DNA of 64,000 nt, from positions 1 through 64,000 of the forward strand of contig KN832875.1 in assembly GCA_000827325.1 (NCBI GenBank), read 5' to 3'. Each line of letters starts with the position of its first letter. Positions within the stretch are counted from its first letter, which is position 1. The translations under genes were made by a program, and so were the position numbers. Origin of the DNA: Oidiodendron maius Zn. Lineage: Eukaryota > Ascomycota > Leotiomycetes > Myxotrichaceae. Below are positions 39,857-56,055 of this stretch, piece by piece. The notes beneath the pieces are model-generated. The model was not told where the DNA came from and searched no databases. It was given only the letters and a program-made list of their open reading frames with translations.

Positions 39857-40636
39857 ATGTCTGACGAACAAACGTACGTCTTCCTCTGGCCAATTCGATC
39901 AACTACAAATAGGCGGTGAAACTTATGGTCAACAGCTTCATTGCCATTAAGCCTGACGGCGTCCAGGTATGTGCTTGACTTCATTGCTGAATATGAGAAA
40001 GGAGATGTTAATTGGCATCATAGCGTGGACTCATTGGTCCCATAATCTCTCGATTCGAGACCCGCGGGTGCGTTTCACCGGTAGCGTCCTAAGATCGCGG
40101 ACATCACTGACAAGTGAATAGCTACAAGCTTGCTGCCATTAAGCTCATCAGCCCTTCTAAGGAGCATCTTGAGAAGCACTGTGAGTTAAAAGTCCACTAT
40201 CACAATCAATGATATTTGCTGACCAAACTGCCAGATGAGGATCTCTCCTCCAAGCCTTTCTTCCCAGGACTCATCAAGTGTACGCCTCAATTGTCCACAC
40301 CTGCCGATCCCTCTGACAATATATAGATATGAGCAGCGGCCCTATCTGCGCCATGGTCTGGGAAGGCCGTGATGCCGTCAAGACTGGTCGTGGTATGTAC
40401 CTCGTTCATTTCTGCTCACTCCCGTTGACACTCTCACAGCCCTTCTTGGTGCTACTAACCCTCTGGCATCCGCTCCTGGCACAATAAGAGGCGATTACGC
40501 TATTGATATAGGTCGGAATATATGCCACGGCTCGGACAGCATTGAGAATGCCAAGAAGGAAATTGCTTTATGGTTCAAGGAGGGCGATATTGTGGAATGG
40601 AAATCTGCCCATCATGACTGGATCTATGAGAAGTAG
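39857..40636 (+). CDS. ndk1: nucleoside diphosphate kinase
   Basis: NDPK transfers the gamma phosphate of ATP to other nucleoside diphosphates through a phospho-His intermediate. Seven exons: 39857-39873, 39936-39966, 40024-40067, 40122-40180, 40235-40279, 40327-40392 and 40440-40636; together 152 aa, the standard length. The protein reads [19 protein letters not shown], then [37 protein letters not shown] and RNICHGSDS, where His117 is the catalytic residue, and ends [12 protein letters not shown]. Six introns in 0.8 kb, with a 17-nt first exon, make it the most finely split gene here. A frame open from ATG 39641 could encode a 72-aa N-terminal extension. A decayed copy of its 3' end lies at 44309-44417. 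Confidence 0.96.
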
Positions 40637-40974
40637 AGAAAGAGAAGAATGAGGAACATGACAAGCAAATAAGCATATCATGTTGAATAAATCCCCTCAA
40701 GTTCACTAGTCAAAGACTCTCGCTCAATGCAAGCTTTCAATTCTCCTATCTCCCCACGTTCATATTGTTTTGAATACAGGCCATGATTATAATTTACGTG
40801 ATTGCACTCACAATAATGCTCTATCTGCTAATTGGGATAAGTACATAAGCCTGCTGCGTGTCAGAGATCAACAAACCATAGTGGGAGGCCATAAAACAGC
40901 ATGCTAGTTCTTGAAAGGCAATAACTGATGGGATTTGAAGTCTGAAATAGCACAAAGCGGCTCTGGTAACAATA
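40637..40974. other. 3' flank of ndk1 and left edge of the recombinase locus
   Basis: 338 bp without a supported gene. If the recombinase locus is a mobile element, its left end should lie here, but I find no clear inverted or direct repeat shared with the right side. Confidence 0.4.
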
Positions 40975-43900
40975 TCAGCCCTGAAATTTAATAATTACTT
41001 CCCACACCAGGAAATAGACACCCCCCATTCGTAACCTCTTCGTACACGTTTTATCTCCCGGCATAACCCGACTCTCTCCTATCGAAGCATCGGGCCAATA
41101 ACAGAATGCTCGTAATCGATCAGCTGTTTTTTTTGGCGTGCTGACTTGCTCCGCAGTTAAAGTTGTGTTGGCGCTCTTTTCTCTGAGTGGCAGCGTAGGT
41201 CCTAAAGATTGACAAATCGGCATTGCCGATTTGTCTTTCATTTTCTCGGGCAACTGACCACTCTGGGAAACAACGGGTTTCAGCTTGTCATATACCTTGG
41301 TTCGAACCTTGACTACTTCCCTGCCTTGATCATCTTGCTCAATTCTTCTCTTGGCTCTGCCTCTCCCAGATGCTTCAGGTCCCCATTTCAAGACCGTAAT
41401 GCACTTTTTGGATGCGCACCCAAGCCTCTGTTGGAGTCATAGCTTGCTCGTACTGATACAGTGGGTGGTGTGCTCACCAGCAGAGGATGCTAGACAATGT
41501 ATTAAATCATCTGAGGTGAGGTATCGAAAATGCGTATGCATGTGGTGCAATTTCCCTTCTCCGAGGCGTAACCAACCGGTCTTCCGCATTGATCGCCTCG
41601 TTGTGGAGGCTAAAGACACAATGCGCTGGTAAGAACTCCTGTTCGCGATGACCAGTGTGACTTAAGCCAATGTACACTCCTGCATAGCCGTAATCCTGAA
41701 CCGCTTGAATTGCTTGACCATGATGAGCAGCAAAGTGGGCCAGTCTCCTTGGCGTGGACTTGATTTCAAAAATGTTCTTGTGGCAATAATGGCACCAAAA
41801 GTACATACAGATCGACGATGTCCAAAGCATAATCTGGTGAGTACAGTAAATATATTGGCATAGTTCTCCTTGGGAAGAGAATATTACGTTGCAACCATCC
41901 CAGAAGCATTTGTACCTAGGAGAGTTATTATGTTTATGAAAATGCTTTTGGCGTTCTTGGGGGGTTGCATTCGTAAGGTCGACTTTGCAGGCTTTTGATT
42001 TGACTGTTGGTATCAAAGTACATTTTGTCGGCAGATTTGCAGAGTAGTCATCCCACAGTTTGTCTGCTTGGGTCTTTGCTTGAGATTGAAGACACTGGTA
42101 TACGTGCGTATAGGCGGTGTCGATTGACAGCTGATCCCCACAGACTACACATCTCGATGCATCATGGGGAGAAATCCAGTGTGCTGGAAGGTCTCTCATA
42201 TGGTGCTCGTTCGACAAAAGTTCCAGAAGTAGTGCCATTGCTGTGCTGGAAGTGACATCTTCATTCTTGGCCACCATATCGTATTTCTTTTTGAGGTGGA
42301 CATAGTCATACGAAAATGCCGTCGTTTAAGTTGAGTGCAACCCAATCGTCCCTGCCATTGAATCTAACAAGTTTCTAAAAATGTTGTGTTTCCGCACTTG
42401 CTGATTGAGCGCCTCTTGAACCGCATCTTCCACGTCGCAATTTGTAGTGTCGTCAGACAGTGCAGCTATCAAGCTTGTGGCTTGGTCTGCCGTAAGCTGC
42501 CCAATATCCTCAACTCGATCTTTAAGAAATAACTAATGATCCTCCTCTGATCCTGTATCCTCCTCAGCTCCTGCATCCAAAGCCCGATAGTTGTCCATAA
42601 TCGGCAGCATCGATTCTGGTTGTTCGAAACTATCGCTCATTCCAACATTCACGGGTTTTGCGGCAGTCAACTCGCGAACAGCCTCCTCTCGAAAGGCTCG
42701 GAATCTCAGTTCTGCTAGTCGTTTCCATTTCCAATTCTTGCTGGCCATGAGAGCTTCATATCTTTGGAGTAGCTGTAATGCGATTGCTGATTGTTTGGCT
42801 GCTTTTCTAGTCTCTTGAGGGGATCCAAATTGATCAGGACATGCCCTTTTTGCCTCCTCGGATTCTTCCAAACTTCTATAAACTCCGGATGAGAGTTGAT
42901 TGCGGCCAGCTCTTTCGCTGGCAGAGTTACAGGGGCATTACTGCACTTCCCCAAATCCAGGCCAGAGAATGGCGTAAGATCGTATGGGGCTATACTATGA
43001 GCCAGCCCCTGAATGTCAGTGGTCGAAGTTTTAAATATGTACGCAGAAAACGCCTCGGAGTCCGTTTGTTGTCCCATCAGATTCCTAGCAGTATCCCGAT
43101 CCTTACAATGCTGTGCAAGAAGATATGCATCACCATGTCGTAACTGGTGCAACCCAGTCTTTTGGGCGAACCACGCAAGGCGAGACATATGCTGCACAAT
43201 CCTCTGCAATTGACAGTATGTCCACGGATCGGGATCTGTATATGGGGTTGTATTCTCGGCGGGGGAATCGACGACGTCCATTTGGGAGAGTTGAGACCTA
43301 AGAGGCAAAAATACAGAGAGTTCCATGCAAGATGATATTAGTAGTATTGGGCTTCCATACCGGCTCGGTTTGCAAGTGAGAATCTCATCCCAGGTGCGAA
43401 AGTCTCGAAAATAATCGTGATAGAGTGCCAGCACCACCAAAAGGCGGCACGAGTCTTGGAAGATTAAATGTGGAGGCAACAGATGGACAACGAAGCTTTT
43501 GAACCCGCCAGTGTTATACAAGTGCTTCTTCAGCCATTTTTCACAGCACAACAATGTGAATTGTGATGCCACCGGCGTCGTCGGATGGAAGCATGAAGAA
43601 TTGGAGATCCTGCCACTTCAGATACCGCCCTTTTCTTTTGAATCCGTATCTGTCGGAACAAATTCTCCAATCCTTGACGCGCCATCGACAAGGTTATTCA
43701 ATACGAGAGTTGTATTGAACATAGCTCGAACGCTTTTGAAGACCGAAATGCTGTTGAAGCTCCATACGGCTTCAATCAGTTGTTCTACATCAGCAGTGTA
43801 TGCGACTGGTTTCTCTTTGATCTCATGATTCAGTCTAAGTTCTCTAGAAAGATCGTTTCGAACCCAATATCGTGCTGATTTGATCAAGTCAGAGTCAAGA

Positions 43901-44308
43901 GTGCTGTTGAAATAACCAAAGGCGCTGGCTAATACGATAATGTAACGTTCAACTGTCCCAGTGGTGACTTTGGTAGTCTCGGTCATAGTTGATGGTTCAT
44001 GGCTTGCTGTGTACAGAGTCCCGACTGAAGTATCAGCGACCCAGAACAAGAATCGATGTAGAAGAAGTCGATCCGGACGAGGACCACCGGGCTTGAAATA
44101 GTCGGGACCCTCGAGGCGGCCAAGCTTTGTCTGAAAAAAATTCACACCACAATCGCATAACGGAGTCCGAATTTCGTAGCCATCGAAAAGTGTAAATCCT
44201 CCGTCCTCTCACATCAATATCATCCCGCTCCATCGGCCTCTGGTCTGGGTCTCGAGCATTTTCATTATCAGCATGCCGTTTTGCGCTGCTTTGATGCATT
44301 CCTTTCAC
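40975..44308 (-). pseudogene. decayed DUF3435/captain-like tyrosine recombinase with C-terminal zinc fingers
   Basis: Minus-strand fragments line up, in order, with the fungal DUF3435 (FluG-like) tyrosine recombinases, the family that includes Starship captains. From the 5' side: 44308-44206, 44207-43621 (TVERYIIVLASAFGYF, EIKEKPVAYTADVEQLIEAV, GASRIGEFVP with the first catalytic Arg near 43674), 43619-43560 in another frame (YLKWQDLQFFMLPSDDAGG), 43572-42860 (LHQLRHGDAYLL, giving an HxxR box near 43149, and EAFSAYIF with a candidate Tyr nucleophile near 43041), then 42871-41507 with a basic helix and three Cys/His clusters (CVVCGDQL, CFWDGCNVIF, CHYCHKNIF). At least four frame changes and in-frame stops (42533-42535, 42326-42328) break it, so it should be inactive. 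It could instead be a domesticated gene whose introns I misplace, but the stops argue against that. Confidence 0.72.
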
Positions 44309-44417
44309 TTAGTGGCTGATTAATGTTGGCAGGAGCCTGGCCTGGCTGGAACGTTTTGCCATGGGCTCTGACAGCGTCGAGAATGCTTAAGGAGAATTGC
44401 TCTCTGGTTTTTAAGGC
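44309..44417 (+). pseudogene. broken 3' fragment of a nucleoside diphosphate kinase gene
   Basis: The stretch 44348-44413 aligns base by base with the last ndk1 exon around the active-site His: GCCATGGGCTCTGACAGC here against GCCACGGCTCGGACAGC there, then GAGAATGC and AATTGCT..TGGTT in both. It is out of frame by several 1-nt indels. A weaker match (cttag then gctgattaat and tggca) upstream covers the start of that exon, with about 33 nt missing between. The sequence after the Trp-Phe codons no longer matches ndk1. It lies on the same strand as the intact gene, 3.7 kb away, on the far side of the recombinase relic. Confidence 0.65.
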
Positions 44418-44425
44418 CACATGCT

Positions 44426-44548
44426 TCTGGCCCTACTTCTTCTAGTCCTACCTCCCACCCTCCTACTTCTCGCCCTTCTACTTCTAGCCCCTCTGCTTCT
44501 GGTACTTCTACGTCTGGTCTTCCTACGTCTGGCCGCACTCGTGTCTGA
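44426..44548 (+). repeat. short Ser/Thr/Pro-coding minisatellite
   Basis: An imperfect repeat of about 12-15 bp built from cctacttct/ttctagccc units. In one plus-strand frame, reachable from the kinase fragment, it reads SGPTSSSPTSHPPTSRPSTS and further similar units up to a TGA at 44546-44548. The reverse strand gives an equally repetitive but meaningless frame. Confidence 0.6.
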
Positions 44549-44673
44549 ATTGAGAGGGCTAGTCAATATGTAGAGTACACCACGGCCACGAAGACGGCAT
44601 TTAAGTCACACGAGGGTTTATTTATTTTCTCAGTAAAACTTCGGAGATGACATTTTCCAATTATATGATAAGT

Positions 44674-45444
44674 TTAGGCGTCTTTCGCACCATTACCAGC
44701 ATTCTTCCCGACTGCTGCGCCTTTCCCCGCAGTAGCAGATTTCTGGGCTCTTCCAAAGACTTTACTAATAAATACCCGTGCTGTCCATGGTGTAGCCCAA
44801 ACACTGAATATAATTCTCACTGGCAACACAATCTTTGTAATCGCGTATGCTGTAGCTACCTCGATCAAGATCCTACTACCAGCTTCGCCAACATTCCATC
44901 TCCGCTCCAACTCCTCCACTTCTCCACTTGCACTCTGCTTTCCAGTTTCTGCAGGAGCTGGTTGCTTATCCAAGATTTCGATGGCCTCCTTGTTGAACCC
45001 AAACCAACCTTTCCTCGCAAAGTATCTACCGAACTTCGAGACGCCTTCGGAGAAATAAGATCCTTCGCCCAGGAACTAAGTGAAGCTCATTAGGAGGAAA
45101 TTTCCTAAAAGCTAAGAACCGTGTACTTATAGAGACATGAAATAAGGACATATACATACAGAAGGGAGCCATCCGCTCCAGTGGAACCACGCTGCCAGCC
45201 CTATAAGTGGCACAATCGCTGTGATCTCGTGCAGAATCAAGAACGCCACGATGTTAGAAACGGGCGCGTTCCGCAAACTCTCAGTATATGGGCGAAGGAA
45301 CCGAGGAACTCTACTCAACACTCGATCAATCCTAGCATCTGTACTTGCCTTGCTAGACTGAAATCGCTGCTGAATTGGTCGTCGGAATGGGGAGGGTCCA
45401 GCAAATGAGGGAAAAGGCTTCCGGCGAAGCGCACGGAAGAACAT
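44674..45444 (-). CDS. mitochondrial DUF1279 (FAM210-like) membrane protein
   Basis: Predicted mitochondrial inner-membrane protein of the DUF1279 family; relatives are linked to mitochondrial translation, but the function here is inferred only. Two exons on the minus strand: 45444-45160 and 45075-44674 (228 aa). The N-terminus (MFFRALRRKPFPSFAGPSPF, then RRPIQQRFQSS) is a strong mitochondrial presequence. The domain starts PYTESLRNAPVSNIVAFLIL and contains HEITAIVPLIGLAAWFHWSG, then after the intron FARKGWFGF and AITKIVLPVRIIFSVWATPW. The tail is Ala/Gly/Lys-rich. The domain is split by an 84-nt intron with CTTAG acceptor. Confidence 0.85.
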
Positions 45445-46989
45445 CACATTCTATTTCTGCTAGCTGGGACACAGCCGGAAATCAATGCGGCCACTAGAAG
45501 GGTGATGAGGAGTTGGTGAAGGAGAGGGAGGTGGGTTATGGGAGATTGAAGCTTTCAGGGCTCGGCTCAAGCTTACCTTACCCGAAGGTCATCATCCGAC
45601 ACACGGCAGGCTGATCATTCTGTTTCCTCTTCATTCCCTGTAGGCATTCGGACGTAGTGTTATTGCCTTGCGATAGTGTAGCGACGAAAGTCCTTCGGAG
45701 AAGGCTGGTTTACGTTCCAAGTTCAAGGCAGACCGCCTGGTTGTTGATCTTGTGCATTTTCTTGCACCAAGCTGTGGCACGTAGTAGTCCGCATGCCAGA
45801 GTCTTTTGCAGTTCGCAGAGGCTGCTACCTACCCAAGACGGTACAACAGTCTCGTAATCTTGCATGCAATTGTCTGCGTGAAAGAGGTTCAGGTTGGTGA
45901 AATGTCATGTTTTCTGGTCATCCAATGCGGCATTTCTTTCTAGCATTTCATGTCTCGAGATTAGCCTTCTATCATGAATCCAAGTCTCAAGTAGCGAATA
46001 TGTCTCTTCTCTCGAAAACTGGCCCAGAATCTGCCTTGACTGTCACTTAGTCCATCACAGTTCTGCATGCCTTTTATTTTACAAGGTATTAGCGCTCCTT
46101 ATATATGCCACCATTCCAATCAAAAGCAGGCTCTCTGAGGTAATTGATATTCAGGAGGAAATGCTCGGCATCACCACCTCGCTGTATATCATTCAGCGAT
46201 ATCCACTACACTTGATCGTCAACACCAGAGAATCATCTATCGCTGATAAAAGTCTGATCCCTTGCCTAACGGGATGCCCCTCTCATATTCTGAGATCGAG
46301 GCTTCTATCGAAAAGATCTGATACCCGCTAGAAATGCGGATGACCGAGCGTATAATTTTGAAACTTTCAAAAGGGCCAGAATGGAATGTGTCATTCCGGG
46401 ACTGAAAGATATTAACTCCCCAACTCGTTTTACTGTACACTTCATTGAATGGCACTTTCCTTTCCTTTCTTTTCCTCCTTCTGTACTTAGTGCTGAAACT
46501 AGTTTAAGGTAAACTAAGATACGGAGAAGATAGAGAATATGGTGCAAAAAGTTGCTCACTAAAGTCTCTTCAAGATAAGATCAAAGTCCATGAAGAGACT
46601 GAGACATGTCTTCAGCATGAACAAGAGGCCAAAAAGAGCGAGAGAAATATCATGGTAATAGGCGTGTGAATGGGTCCAAGCTTCTATTTCTAGCATCACT
46701 AATATGAGCTTCGAATAGGATCGCGAGAAACAGTTTGGAATCTTTTGCAACATATTAGTCTTTGCCACAGAACATTCCATTCTACTGACAAATACAAAGA
46801 ATATTCCGCCGTAGTGTTCAATTATTTGGTCTATGAGCTAGAAATAGCTGCTCGAAGGGTTCCAAAGGGCCTATCTTCGATCCCTGGGAGTAATGTTACA
46901 CCACCCCTTTCCTTCGGCAAACTCAATTAACGTAAACAGGCATGCGCATTATATTTATGTGCACAGCGTCGAATCCTGCCCGGGGATAC
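45445..46989. other. intergenic with possible decayed 5' part of the G-alpha gene
   Basis: About 1.5 kb. A weak plus-strand trace from roughly 46565 (EQEAKKSERNIMVIGV, later EYSAVVFNYLVYELEIAARR) resembles the N-terminal part of G-alpha proteins but has stops and no intact P-loop. The rest shows nothing I can support. Confidence 0.4.
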
Positions 46990-51540: not shown

Positions 51541-53900
51541 ATGGCTCGAACGAGGTCAATGGGGACTGCTGGGGTGGGCAATATCAATGGCAATAAGGCT
51601 GACCAAAAAGATACAATTTCATGCAATGGTCACAGGACGGAAGTTAGGAAACCTATACTGTCAGAGCGAACCGACTACACCAGATGGCGATTGCTGGACG
51701 AGAGGGGAAGACAAACTTGGCACTACCTTGAGGATGACGAGGACGCGAAGGAATGGCCACAATCTACTGCAGATAAGTACTTTCTGGGTCTACCATTGGT
51801 AAGAAGCATGCTTTGCCCCTGTTCAATAACGCAAACTGATTGTCTTAAAAGGATCTCCCAGACCTCCCTCCTGCTAGAACACCGCTTGAGTCAGTCAAGA
51901 ACGGCCTTGAGTTCTTTGAGCATCTTCAGCTGCCCCCAGGAAACTGGGGTTGTGAATATGGAGGCCCAATGTTTCTTCTCCCAGGACTCGTCACTACGTG
52001 GACCGTCACAAATACGCCTATCCCGGACCATATTGCGACAGAAATAAAGAACTACCTCTTTGCCCGCGCCCACCCTGAAGATGGTGGCTGGGGCTTACAC
52101 ATTGAAGGAGAGAGTACCGTCTTTGGAACCGCTATGAATTACACAGCGCTACGTCTTCTTGGAGTGGACGCTGAAGAGGAACATATGGTCAAAGCCCGGG
52201 GTACACTGCATAAGATGGGTGGTGCTAAGTACGCTCCACATTGGGCAAAATTCTGGCTCAGCTTGCTTGGTGTGTGCCAATGGGATATTGTCAACCCTGT
52301 TCCTCCTGAGTTATGGCTTCTCCCTGACTGGGTCCCCTTCGCGCCATGGCGGTGGTGGATCCACATGCGACAAGTCTTCCTGCCAATGTCATACGTCTGG
52401 TCGAAGCGTTGGACCTACCCCGAGACTCCAATTGTACATGCACTGCGCGAAGAACTGTTTGTTGAGCCCTACTACTCAATTAGTTGGGGCAGCAATCGCA
52501 ACAGCATTTATGAGAAGGACAATTACCATAAGAAGACCTGGCTTCTGAGAACCCTGTTTTGGCTTATTGCAAATGTTTATTATCCGTATATTAGACCTAA
52601 CTGGTTGGTGAAGAGGGCTGAAGACTGGGCCTACAAGCTTATTCAATTAGAGGACAAGAATACCGACTTCTCGAATCTGGGGCCAGTCAATGGACCTATG
52701 AATTTTCTGTGCTGCTACATTCAGGAAGGCCCAGGCGCATACTCTGTACAGCGTCATCGAGAACGGATGGCTGACTTCATGTGGGTAAAGCCTGAAGGCA
52801 TGCTGATGAATGGCACTAATGGTGTCCAATGCTGGGATACCTCATTCACGATCCAGGCTGTCACGGATGCCGGCCTCACTCAAGATCCGAAATATAAGAA
52901 AATGCTCACAAAGGCGCTGGAGTTTTTGGAAGATCAACAGATGAGAGAGAACGTTGACGATCAAGCTATGTGCTATCGCCAGCAGCGAAAGGGAGCTTGG
53001 GGGTTTAGTAACAAAGACCAGGGCTATGCTGTGAGCGACTGTATTTCAGAAGCTCTTAAGGCAGTCCTAGTTCTTCAACGAACGCCTGGCTTCCCGACGC
53101 TCATCGAAGACCAACGCATATTTGATGCTATTGACACTTTGCTCACATATCAAAATTCTTCCGGTGGATGCGCATCATACGAGCCCACTCGAGGGTCTGA
53201 AAAAATGGAATGGCTCAATGCTGCAGAGGTCTTCGGTCGAATCATGATTGAGTATGATTATCCGGAGTGCACAACGGCCGTTGTGACTGCACTCTCTCTG
53301 TTCTCTAAATACTATCCTGAATACCGAGCAACAGAAATCAAACCGTTTAAAGATCGGGCTATTGCTTATATCCGCAGAGCGCAATTCCCTGACGGCAGTT
53401 GGTATGGAAGCTGGGGAATTTGCTTCACATACGCAGGGATGTTTGCTTTGGAAAGTCTCGCCAGTATTGGAGAGTCCTATGAGAACAGTGAGCACGTACG
53501 AAAAGGCTGTGATTTCCTTGTTTCGAAACAGAGAGCCGATGGTGGTTGGTCGGAAAGTTACAAGGTCCGTAAATTGGCTGCATATATAAAGCATTCTAAC
53601 TCTCACTAGGGATGCGAGCAGTCGGTATACATTGAGCATCCTAGCGGCTCCCAAGTTGTTATGACTGCTTGGGCCTGCATCGGGCTAATAGAGTCTAATT
53701 ATCCAGATCGGGCAGTTATTGAGCGTGGTTTGAAACTCATCATGAGTCGACAACAGAAGAATGGCGAGTGGCTCCAGGAAGCCATTGAAGGCGTTTTCAA
53801 TAAAAGTTGCATGATTTCATACCCGAACTATAAGTTCATATTTCCTATCAAGGCGTTGGGCATGTTCGCTACAAAGTACGGAGATATCAAGTTGCTGTGA
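51541..53900 (+). CDS. erg7: lanosterol synthase (oxidosqualene cyclase)
   Basis: Erg7 cyclises 2,3-oxidosqualene to lanosterol in ergosterol synthesis, on lipid droplets or ER. Three exons: 51541-51798, 51852-53564 and 53610-53900 (753 aa, normal length). The protein shows [40 protein letters not shown], several QW-type repeats ([32 protein letters not shown]) and the catalytic Asp near residue 482 in [12 protein letters not shown]; the usual motif is DCTAE/DCTSE, so the Thr is replaced by Ile. The last exon has [12 protein letters not shown] and [20 protein letters not shown], the normal end. Other cyclase families (fusidane, protostadienol synthases) share motifs, but this wording fits lanosterol synthase. 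Confidence 0.94.
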
Positions 53901-54048
53901 AAGCTTTCTTGATCAATCAGGGCTTGAGGATAGAGGAATAAACGGAGTATAGAATCATTGGCTTTAATTTACTCCTGCCCCTACAAAGAGAAGATGCTGG
54001 CTCGCATAACATTAGGCAGCTAGCGAAATATAAGTTACATACAACATA

Positions 54049-54099
54049 ACGTGTATGTACAGTGAGTCGCTTAGGACAGTAAGCCGTTCATTTTCTATA
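54049..54099 (+). repeat. left terminal inverted repeat of the Fot1-like element
   Basis: About 50 bp. The outer 32 bases are identical to the reverse complement of the right end; the inner part differs by A/G exchanges and one indel. Confidence 0.9.
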
Positions 54100-54147
54100 A
54101 TTTCCCACCCTACTACACTTTACCCTACTTTTTCTCTACTGTACATT

Positions 54148-55797
54148 ATGGAATCAACTTCTAATGAACGCAAGGTTATCCTTACCCTCCAAGCCCTTAA
54201 ACATGACCCCTGTCTTAATGTTATATATACAGCCAAAATCTATAGTGCTCCACTTAGAACAGTCCTTGATCGATGTAGTGGCCGACTATTATGACGCGAT
54301 ATTCAACCCAAATCTCGAAAGCTTACTGATTTAGAAGAATCAGTGATTGTTCAATATATTCTTGACCTTGATTCCAAAGGGTTTCCACCTAGGCTTTGTG
54401 GTATAGAAGATATAGCTAATTATCTGCTTGCTGAACGAAATACAGGACGTGTCGGAATGCGCTAGGCTTCTCGCTTTATATAACGACAACTACAGCTTAC
54501 TATACGTTTTAATCGAAAATACGATTACTAGAGAGCTAAATACGAAGATCCGATTATAATTAGTGGCTGGTTTTCACTCCTCAAGAATATAATTATAAAG
54601 TATAGAATTATAGACACGGATATCTACAATTTTGACAAGACTGGGTTTATAATAGGCGTTATCTCAACAGCAATAGTGGTTATAAGCTTAGAGAGGTCTA
54701 GTAGAGCAAAGGCAAAGCAGCCTAGTAATCGCGAATAGGTTATAGTAATCCAGGCTATAGATACACTTAGCTGGTCACTACTGCTATTTGTAGTTGTAAA
54801 GGGTGTATATATCCTACTCTCCTAGTATAATGAGTTCAAATTACCAAAGGGTTGGAGGCTCTCTGTTAGTGATAATAGGTGGACTATAAATGAGATCGGC
54901 CTAGATTAGATCAAGTATTTTGAATTATATATATAGCCTCGAAAAGTAGGTAGATATCAACTCCTAATACTTGATGGCTATGAATCTTACTACTTAACTG
55001 AATTCAAGCTTTTCTGTCAGGACTACAATATCATTATACTTTATATGCCTCCTTATTCCTCTTATATTCTCTAGCTACTTGATGTAGGCTGTTTTAGTCC
55101 ATTAAAAAAGTTATATAGCAAGCAAATTGAGGGTTTAATGTATAGTGGTTAGACCTATATTATAAAGGAGGATTTCTTTCCAGTATTCCAGGTAGTATTC
55201 CAAGAGTCAATAACTATACAAAACATCCAGGGAGGCTTTAGAGGGACTGGAATTACACCTTTTAATCCTTAGTGAGTCCTAGACATCCTCCCTCCTTGTG
55301 CAAAAACGCTAACTCCTTCAAACTTATATCCTAGTATAGCCCAAACCTGGAACCCTAGGACTCTAAAGAATGCAACCAATGCCTCACGACAGTCTACCTT
55401 TATTAAAACCTGAATTAATTACCATCAGGGTAGCTCTCTAATATAGGCTATTGATACTATAGACCAATTTACTAAGGGTTCAGTGGCAATTATATATAAG
55501 GTAGCTCTATTGCAGTCATGGATTACTGAGCTAGAAGAGGCAAATAAGAGGCTTAGCAAGCATTACAAGCTAAAAAAAACCAGACTATAAAAAGGAGGAT
55601 TATTTTCTATAGAAGAGGTAGAGGAGTTAGTAGGTTGTATTAATGTAGATGGCCAGCAGAGTAAGGAAATAGGTAGTAGTGGTAGTCAAGGGCAAGGTAT
55701 ACAATCATATATTCGGTACTATAGTAATTGCGGCAAGACTAGACATAATATATATACCTGTCAAATAGTACTAGAGACCTCTAAGGAAGAGGATTGA
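54148..55797 (+). pseudogene. Fot1-like transposase, inactivated by in-frame stops
   Basis: The frame from ATG 54148 to TGA 55795-55797 (549 codons) stays in one phase but contains about fourteen internal TAG, TAA and TGA codons. Order of parts: an N-terminal psq/CENP-B-like helix-turn-helix (ALKHDPCLNVIYTAKIYSAP), a second DNA-binding region (LTDLEESVIVQYILDLDSKG, then FPPRLCGIEDIANYLL), and a DDE domain with NFDKTGF, LILDGYESY and MPPYSSYIL followed by LLDVGCFSPLK. A C-terminal CCHC-like knuckle reads SNCGKTRHNIYTC with its first Cys changed to Tyr. No frameshift is needed, so the decay is by substitution only, as RIP produces. Confidence 0.88.
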
Positions 55798-55858
55798 TAC
55801 ATTAATAATTAGTTTTAGGGTGTTGTAGTTGAATAATAATTAATCTTATACTAGGGTC

Positions 55859-55909
55859 ATAGAAAAGTGAATGGCTCACTGTCCTAAGCGACTCACTGTA
55901 CATACACGT
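55859..55909 (-). repeat. right terminal inverted repeat of the Fot1-like element
   Basis: Inverted copy of 54049-54099; its outer 32 bases match exactly. Followed by the TA duplication. Confidence 0.9.
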
Positions 55910-56055
55910 TATCCAAATATGAAGAATATTCCAGCAGTGTAATACCTCTATTGTCCAGGCAGCTCTGGTACAGGCAAATATACGAAAAAATTGGGTATAT
56001 TATAGTAAAAAAAATAGAATATGAATTTCTGATCCGGCGGTCAAAGCGTGCTATA

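Follow-up and report, generated by a model that had tools for sequence, protein, structure and literature searches.

We find that, in Oidiodendron maius Zn, a decayed gene for a DUF3435 tyrosine recombinase is flanked on both sides, in direct orientation, by sequence from the final exon of the gene for nucleoside diphosphate kinase (NDK). The window analyzed here covers the initial 64 kb of contig C6, and the genome searched comprises 45.9 Mb in 58 contigs. The DUF3435 and FLILHELTA domains, together with AT-rich tracts that resemble the outcome of repeat-induced point mutation, would fit a fungus of the Pezizomycotina. The order of the locus is a whole NDK gene, the recombinase gene pointing toward NDK, a relic of the NDK 3' end and a gene of the FLILHELTA family, with the candidate target gene intact on one side and its putatively displaced 3' fragment, in the same orientation, on the other. 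In the reading that we prefer, and to which we give about an even chance of being right, a single-gene DUF3435 element integrated into the 3' exon of NDK, supplied a replacement 3' end and later died.

The DUF3435 assignment is near certain. The decayed gene occupies the minus strand from about 41,500 to 44,308, and its fragments, joined by X, matched the Pfam profile PF11917 with 37.6 bits (E 1.6e-9, profile positions 48-348 of 418), this being the sole Pfam match of the joined sequence. A first-pass annotation had read the motif order of a DUF3435 tyrosine recombinase from the minus strand and had proposed a search of the joined fragments against PF11917. The motifs it named were found and the score lies above the cut-off of 25.8 bits, in agreement with that reading. 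The best single fragment, the core at 42715-43617 (minus strand), scored just under the cut-off (24.6 bits, E 1.5e-5, profile 172-304; 23.6 bits in the genome-wide PF11917 search), and the other eight of the nine pseudogene fragments gave no DUF3435 match in Pfam on their own. GASRIGEFVP is found in the N-terminal part (43618-44308, minus strand, with a frame change near 44150), and HQLRHG and EAFSAYIF follow in the core fragment, giving the order candidate Arg, HxxR-like box and candidate Tyr along the frames. The Arg of GASRIGEFVP, a candidate box I Arg, occupies an invariant column in an alignment of four DUF3435 pieces, and the Tyr of SAYIF is likewise invariant among five DUF3435 pieces of the same genome. 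Arg, HQLRHG and Tyr may represent the catalytic residues, with the alignments covering the Arg and Tyr columns only. Neither the core fragment nor one further DUF3435 copy had a match among solved structures, and nine pattern matches in IMG/VR included no relative.

The C-terminal tail (41507-42325, minus strand) is an open frame without a Pfam match that contains three Cys/His clusters. These had been described as tail zinc fingers in the first-pass annotation; the clusters stand as a pattern, whereas no zinc-finger Pfam match was found for them up to E 10. One cluster matches a frame on contig C17 of the same genome (E 0.005), which by eye appears to encode a C2H2-like protein, and the second weak match of the tail besides itself is to a frame that shows no obvious connection (E 0.058). 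A 153-residue frame with no Pfam match (40975-41436, minus strand) lies in the interval from the NDK stop to the recombinase tail; it may form the terminal part of the recombinase or have nothing to do with it.

We examined six breaks in the recombinase gene, namely frame changes near 44150, 43628, 43552 and 42862 and the stops TAG 42533 and TAA 42326, the latter two lying in frame in the middle part (42326-42937, minus strand). An intron scan that required donor, branch and acceptor motifs returned a single candidate at 44150 and three more at 42862; introns lacking these motifs fall outside the scan. The full donor consensus is present in none of the four, and two of them are a multiple of three long and could therefore not change the frame. 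By eye, an intron at 44213-44127, which has no good branch site, could also serve at 44150. The motif scan gave no candidate at 43628, 43552, TAG 42533 or TAA 42326, and the secure lesions are therefore two frameshifts and two stops. On this count the gene carries at least four lesions, barring introns of other motif make-up, in line with the at least four frame changes and stops counted in the first-pass annotation. The stretch between 43628 and 43552 appears to be coding in its own shifted frame: the PF11917 score is 27.0 bits with this stretch in the shifted frame versus 21.3 bits with the uninterrupted one, and the frame excursion (43546-43632, minus strand) could be aligned with three other DUF3435 copies. 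Assembly error is an unlikely cause of the breaks, because the neighboring genes are intact (a 958-residue GH31 frame and the NDK gene, read by eye). Repeat-induced point mutation (RIP) was rejected as the cause of decay, the TA/AT ratio of the region being 0.59-0.60 with no RIP signature.

The working NDK gene (39857-40636, plus strand) is intact and has several short introns; its exons were read by eye, and its product aligns end to end with fungal NDK structures. PF00334 matches the last exon (40442-40636, plus strand) with 65 bits, and this one match in the genome search represents the only NDK found, the profile search returning no second NDK elsewhere in the genome. The last exon forms a direct repeat with a decayed 53-nt relic of itself (44357-44409, plus strand), which matches 40523-40575 with 43 identities in 55 columns (score 27) and is located upstream of the recombinase, at a distance of 58 bases from its first ATG, in direct orientation with NDK. 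The block 40975-44308 outlined by the first-pass annotation does contain the recombinase, but its right edge is incomplete, as the relic lies just outside.

We compared the relic score of 27 to several null distributions. None of 8000 dinucleotide shuffles reached it (maximum 19.5), 688 tiles of other DUF3435 loci gave at most 18.5, and the best unrelated tile among 510 from the window scored 20.5. When the scoring was varied over four schemes, no null value out of 1924 was at or above the relic in three of them; in the first of these three the best null value (26.0) is close to the observed 27.0, and in the fourth and laxest scheme two of 1924 are at or above it. A cheap-gap alignment was not significant (87 versus a null maximum of 102.5). 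When the 1.5 kb upstream and the 3.5 kb downstream of the recombinase were compared blindly, exactly the pair of NDK exon and relic was picked, with a score of 27 versus a maximum of 18 in 30 shuffles. A DNA search with the last NDK exon found only the exon itself, which places the relic below the sensitivity of this search. When translated, the relic falls into two frames and reaches 22.3 bits with tblastn (E 0.34), the same score as a chance match elsewhere in the window (22.3 bits, E 0.42). The tblastn match runs from 44313, and weaker NDK similarity may start about there.

At two sites the relic codes for Val (NVCHG and DSVENA, by eye) where the working NDK has Ile. All three fungal-like top structure matches (6joh, 6agy and 6xp4) have Val at both sites, and human NDK has Ile at the first. 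Since it keeps these Val codons, the relic is unlikely to have been copied recently from the present NDK gene. Its NDK homology stops about where the recombinase begins, no counterpart to the NDK end after LWF can be recognized in it, and the sequences that continue from the two exon copies do not resemble each other. For the earlier NDK exons, nothing in 43900-44330 or 40637-41600 scored higher than shuffled sequence. We saw no terminal repeat, and the alignments of NDK exon and relic show no exact attachment core; decay may have removed such a core.

On the other side of the relic lies the FLILHELTA-family gene (44674-45450, minus strand), which is convergent with NDK and matches PF10306 with 85.7 bits on the frame 45127-45450 and with 16.5 bits, below the cut-off, on 44674-45075. 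About 265 bases separate the relic from the FLILHELTA stop, a distance that would be plausible as the original convergent spacing of NDK and FLILHELTA. Directly beside the relic, Tandem Repeats Finder reported a 15-bp tandem repeat (44446-44532), across which one plus-strand frame stays open with a Ser/Thr/Pro-rich translation. Between recombinase tail and NDK there is no recognizable gene, and the recombinase sits at one edge. The Pfam scan for cargo covered 24 of 33 frames of at least 190 residues, and 20 ORFs scanned around the recombinase contained no transposon-type domain (E up to 0.001). The lack of visible cargo reported in the first-pass annotation thus holds among the flanking ORFs scanned, whereas its picture of a gene standing alone between two housekeeping genes was understated, since the insertion appears to run into the NDK coding sequence.

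An element that enters the NDK exon and brings a replacement 3' end would leave exactly the order that we observe. The element would be small, about 3.8 kb, with the DUF3435 (captain-type) tyrosine recombinase as its only visible gene. Its recombinase would insert a circular form into a highly conserved stretch in the last exon of the single-copy NDK. NDK would stay whole, because the element carries its own NDK 3' end, and the native 3' end would be pushed to the far side, beside the recombinase start, and decay there; the recombinase gene would later decay by frameshifts and stops. Here we infer the circular intermediate, the site-specific integration and the element origin of the working NDK 3' end, and we propose that the 3' part of the last exon, from about 40485-40523, is element-borne. 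Two fungal NDKs are identical over 26 of 26 residues in the proposed target stretch, and such conservation would suit a recombinase that encounters many different hosts. Over its last 18 compared residues, the working NDK matches 6joh at seven and 6agy at nine positions, and 6joh and 6agy match each other at 11; this divergence has the direction expected for a foreign end, with 18 residues being a small number. The recombinase has its start next to the relic and is directed inward, as a captain is when placed at its element's 5' end. Together, relic and exon would give both ends of an approximately 3.8-kb single-gene insertion, which favors a single-gene element. Entry into a second full NDK copy is not favored, because no earlier NDK exons were found in the stretch compared on the left. 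The first-pass annotation had offered a Crypton-like element, a captain left behind or a member of a non-mobile family; it missed the flanking NDK relic, which speaks for the single-gene option, and the Crypton family does not apply (see below).

The two exon copies could also stem from an old partial tandem duplication of NDK by ordinary rearrangement, between which a DUF3435 gene or a Starship fragment landed without any restoring role. Partial gene duplications are common, the Val states kept by the relic make it old, and the exact attachment core that integration might have left is not visible. In addition, solo DUF3435 genes are more usual than captains residing in elements (PMC12134995). 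Yet the relic lacks the earlier NDK exons, none of which turned up in the stretch compared on each flank, and it would be a coincidence that its homology ends about where the recombinase begins. We consider this history unlikely, if credible. It is still harder to see the gene as a captain left after the loss of a larger Starship, with the relic produced by the rearrangement that removed the cargo, and we regard this as rather improbable. Twelve other DUF3435 loci exist, nine of them in 7-8-kb stretches with a G+C content of at most 0.43 and TA/AT up to 1.51, which indicates that Starship-type elements have probably been present in this genome. The locus itself, however, has no RIP signature (TA/AT 0.59) and no transposon-type domain in the ORFs scanned around it, and a deletion that happens to stop right at the NDK 3' end would be required.

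A host gene with introns that is intact, or was so until recently, and that is related to captains but non-mobile would be compatible with two of the six breaks, for which introns can be drawn (the scan candidates at 42862 and 44150, and 44213-44127 by eye). This would leave two stops and two frameshifts without a candidate intron in the motif scan, and the excursion between the frameshifts looks coding by its profile score. Such a host gene is, in our estimate, very improbable.

We compared the proposed single-gene insertion into NDK to known mobile systems. Certain bacterial integrative elements and prophages integrate at the 3' end of a conserved gene, for which they supply a new end, leaving the same arrangement of whole gene, element and displaced 3' fragment in direct orientation. 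They are prokaryotic and use other recombinase families, and an exact attachment core is usually visible there. Starship captains belong to the same DUF3435 (PF11917) family as our recombinase, with which they share the aligned Arg and Tyr columns and the position at one edge, pointing inward; in Sanctuary the captain is about 350 bp from the element edge (PMC12506042). Starships range from 15 kb to about 700 kb (PMC12134995), whereas the NDK-adjacent element would span about 3.8 kb and has no visible cargo, and it appears to have inserted within a protein-coding exon without disrupting the gene. In Aspergillus fumigatus, 19 of 20 Starships have direct repeats of 2-12 bp (PMC12153272), while the NDK repeat is longer and degenerate. 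Starships in 5S rDNA (e.g. Osiris, of the Enterprise family) also target a conserved gene sequence, but they are predicted to fragment the targeted 5S copy (PMC12153272), in contrast to the whole NDK gene. In many Cryptons a tyrosine recombinase is likewise the only gene; a circular intermediate has been proposed for Cryptons, and they have short direct repeats (PMC3212892). Their recombinase family is a different one, Crypton and captain recombinases being very distantly related (PMC12134995), and fungal Cryptons carry a GCR1_C domain (PMC3212892). We rejected a Crypton on the basis of family, as only PF11917 matches the joined sequence; neither this sequence nor the nine fragments gave a GCR1_C match in Pfam up to E 10, and Cys/His clusters are found instead.

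It is conceivable, though we hold the idea only tentatively and below even chances, that some captain-type recombinases belong to small elements without cargo, which insert into conserved coding exons in essential fungal genes and rebuild the gene with a 3' end of their own, in what would be a parallel to some bacterial integrative elements. If so, such elements would be nearly invisible to searches for large insertions, and the last residues of a core metabolic enzyme would have been replaced by a mobile element. They could also explain some of the numerous orphan captain-like genes, of which 10,628 remained after 2,899 fungal genomes had been searched (PMC12289983) and for which the share due to missed element borders or pseudogenes is under question (PMC12134995). 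A case in which both ends are tied to one host exon makes this question testable. In the parts of the literature searched we found no DUF3435 element in NDK or restoring a coding gene, which is not proof of absence.

The genome search returned 22 DUF3435 pieces, one of which is the NDK-adjacent copy; the other 21 group into 12 loci (on C44, C37, C11, C29, C1 (two), C20, C25 (two), C28, C9 and C3). Many of these have stops and RIP-like composition, with TA/AT around them of 0.79-1.51 and at least 1.0 in nine of the 12, versus 0.59-0.60 for the NDK-adjacent copy. None of the pieces is close to that copy, and a second copy of the element was rejected, as a DNA search with 40640-44680 and a protein search with the core fragment, both of which score only the best candidates, found only the window itself. 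A gene-derived flanking repeat was shown at none of the 12 loci. Their flanking repeats exceed the best of 30 shuffles at three loci (C37, 28.0 versus 26.5; C9, 23.5 versus 20.5; C25b, 60 versus 38), all of lower G+C content (0.32-0.43), and do not exceed it at nine. The direct flanking similarity around the DUF3435 piece at 153-160 kb of C25 (60 versus a shuffle maximum of 38, 32% G+C) may reflect composition or a true repeat. The copies at 44.4-46.3 kb of C25 and 240-242 kb of C29 are the least damaged by eye.

Elsewhere in the window, one open frame of 586 residues (51849-53606, plus strand) encodes squalene-hopene cyclase domains. Fungal genes for cyclases of bacterial type are often regarded as acquired. 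Downstream of this frame lies an AT-rich, RIP-like tract (54001-56000) with a G+C content of 0.37 and a TA/AT ratio of 1.31.
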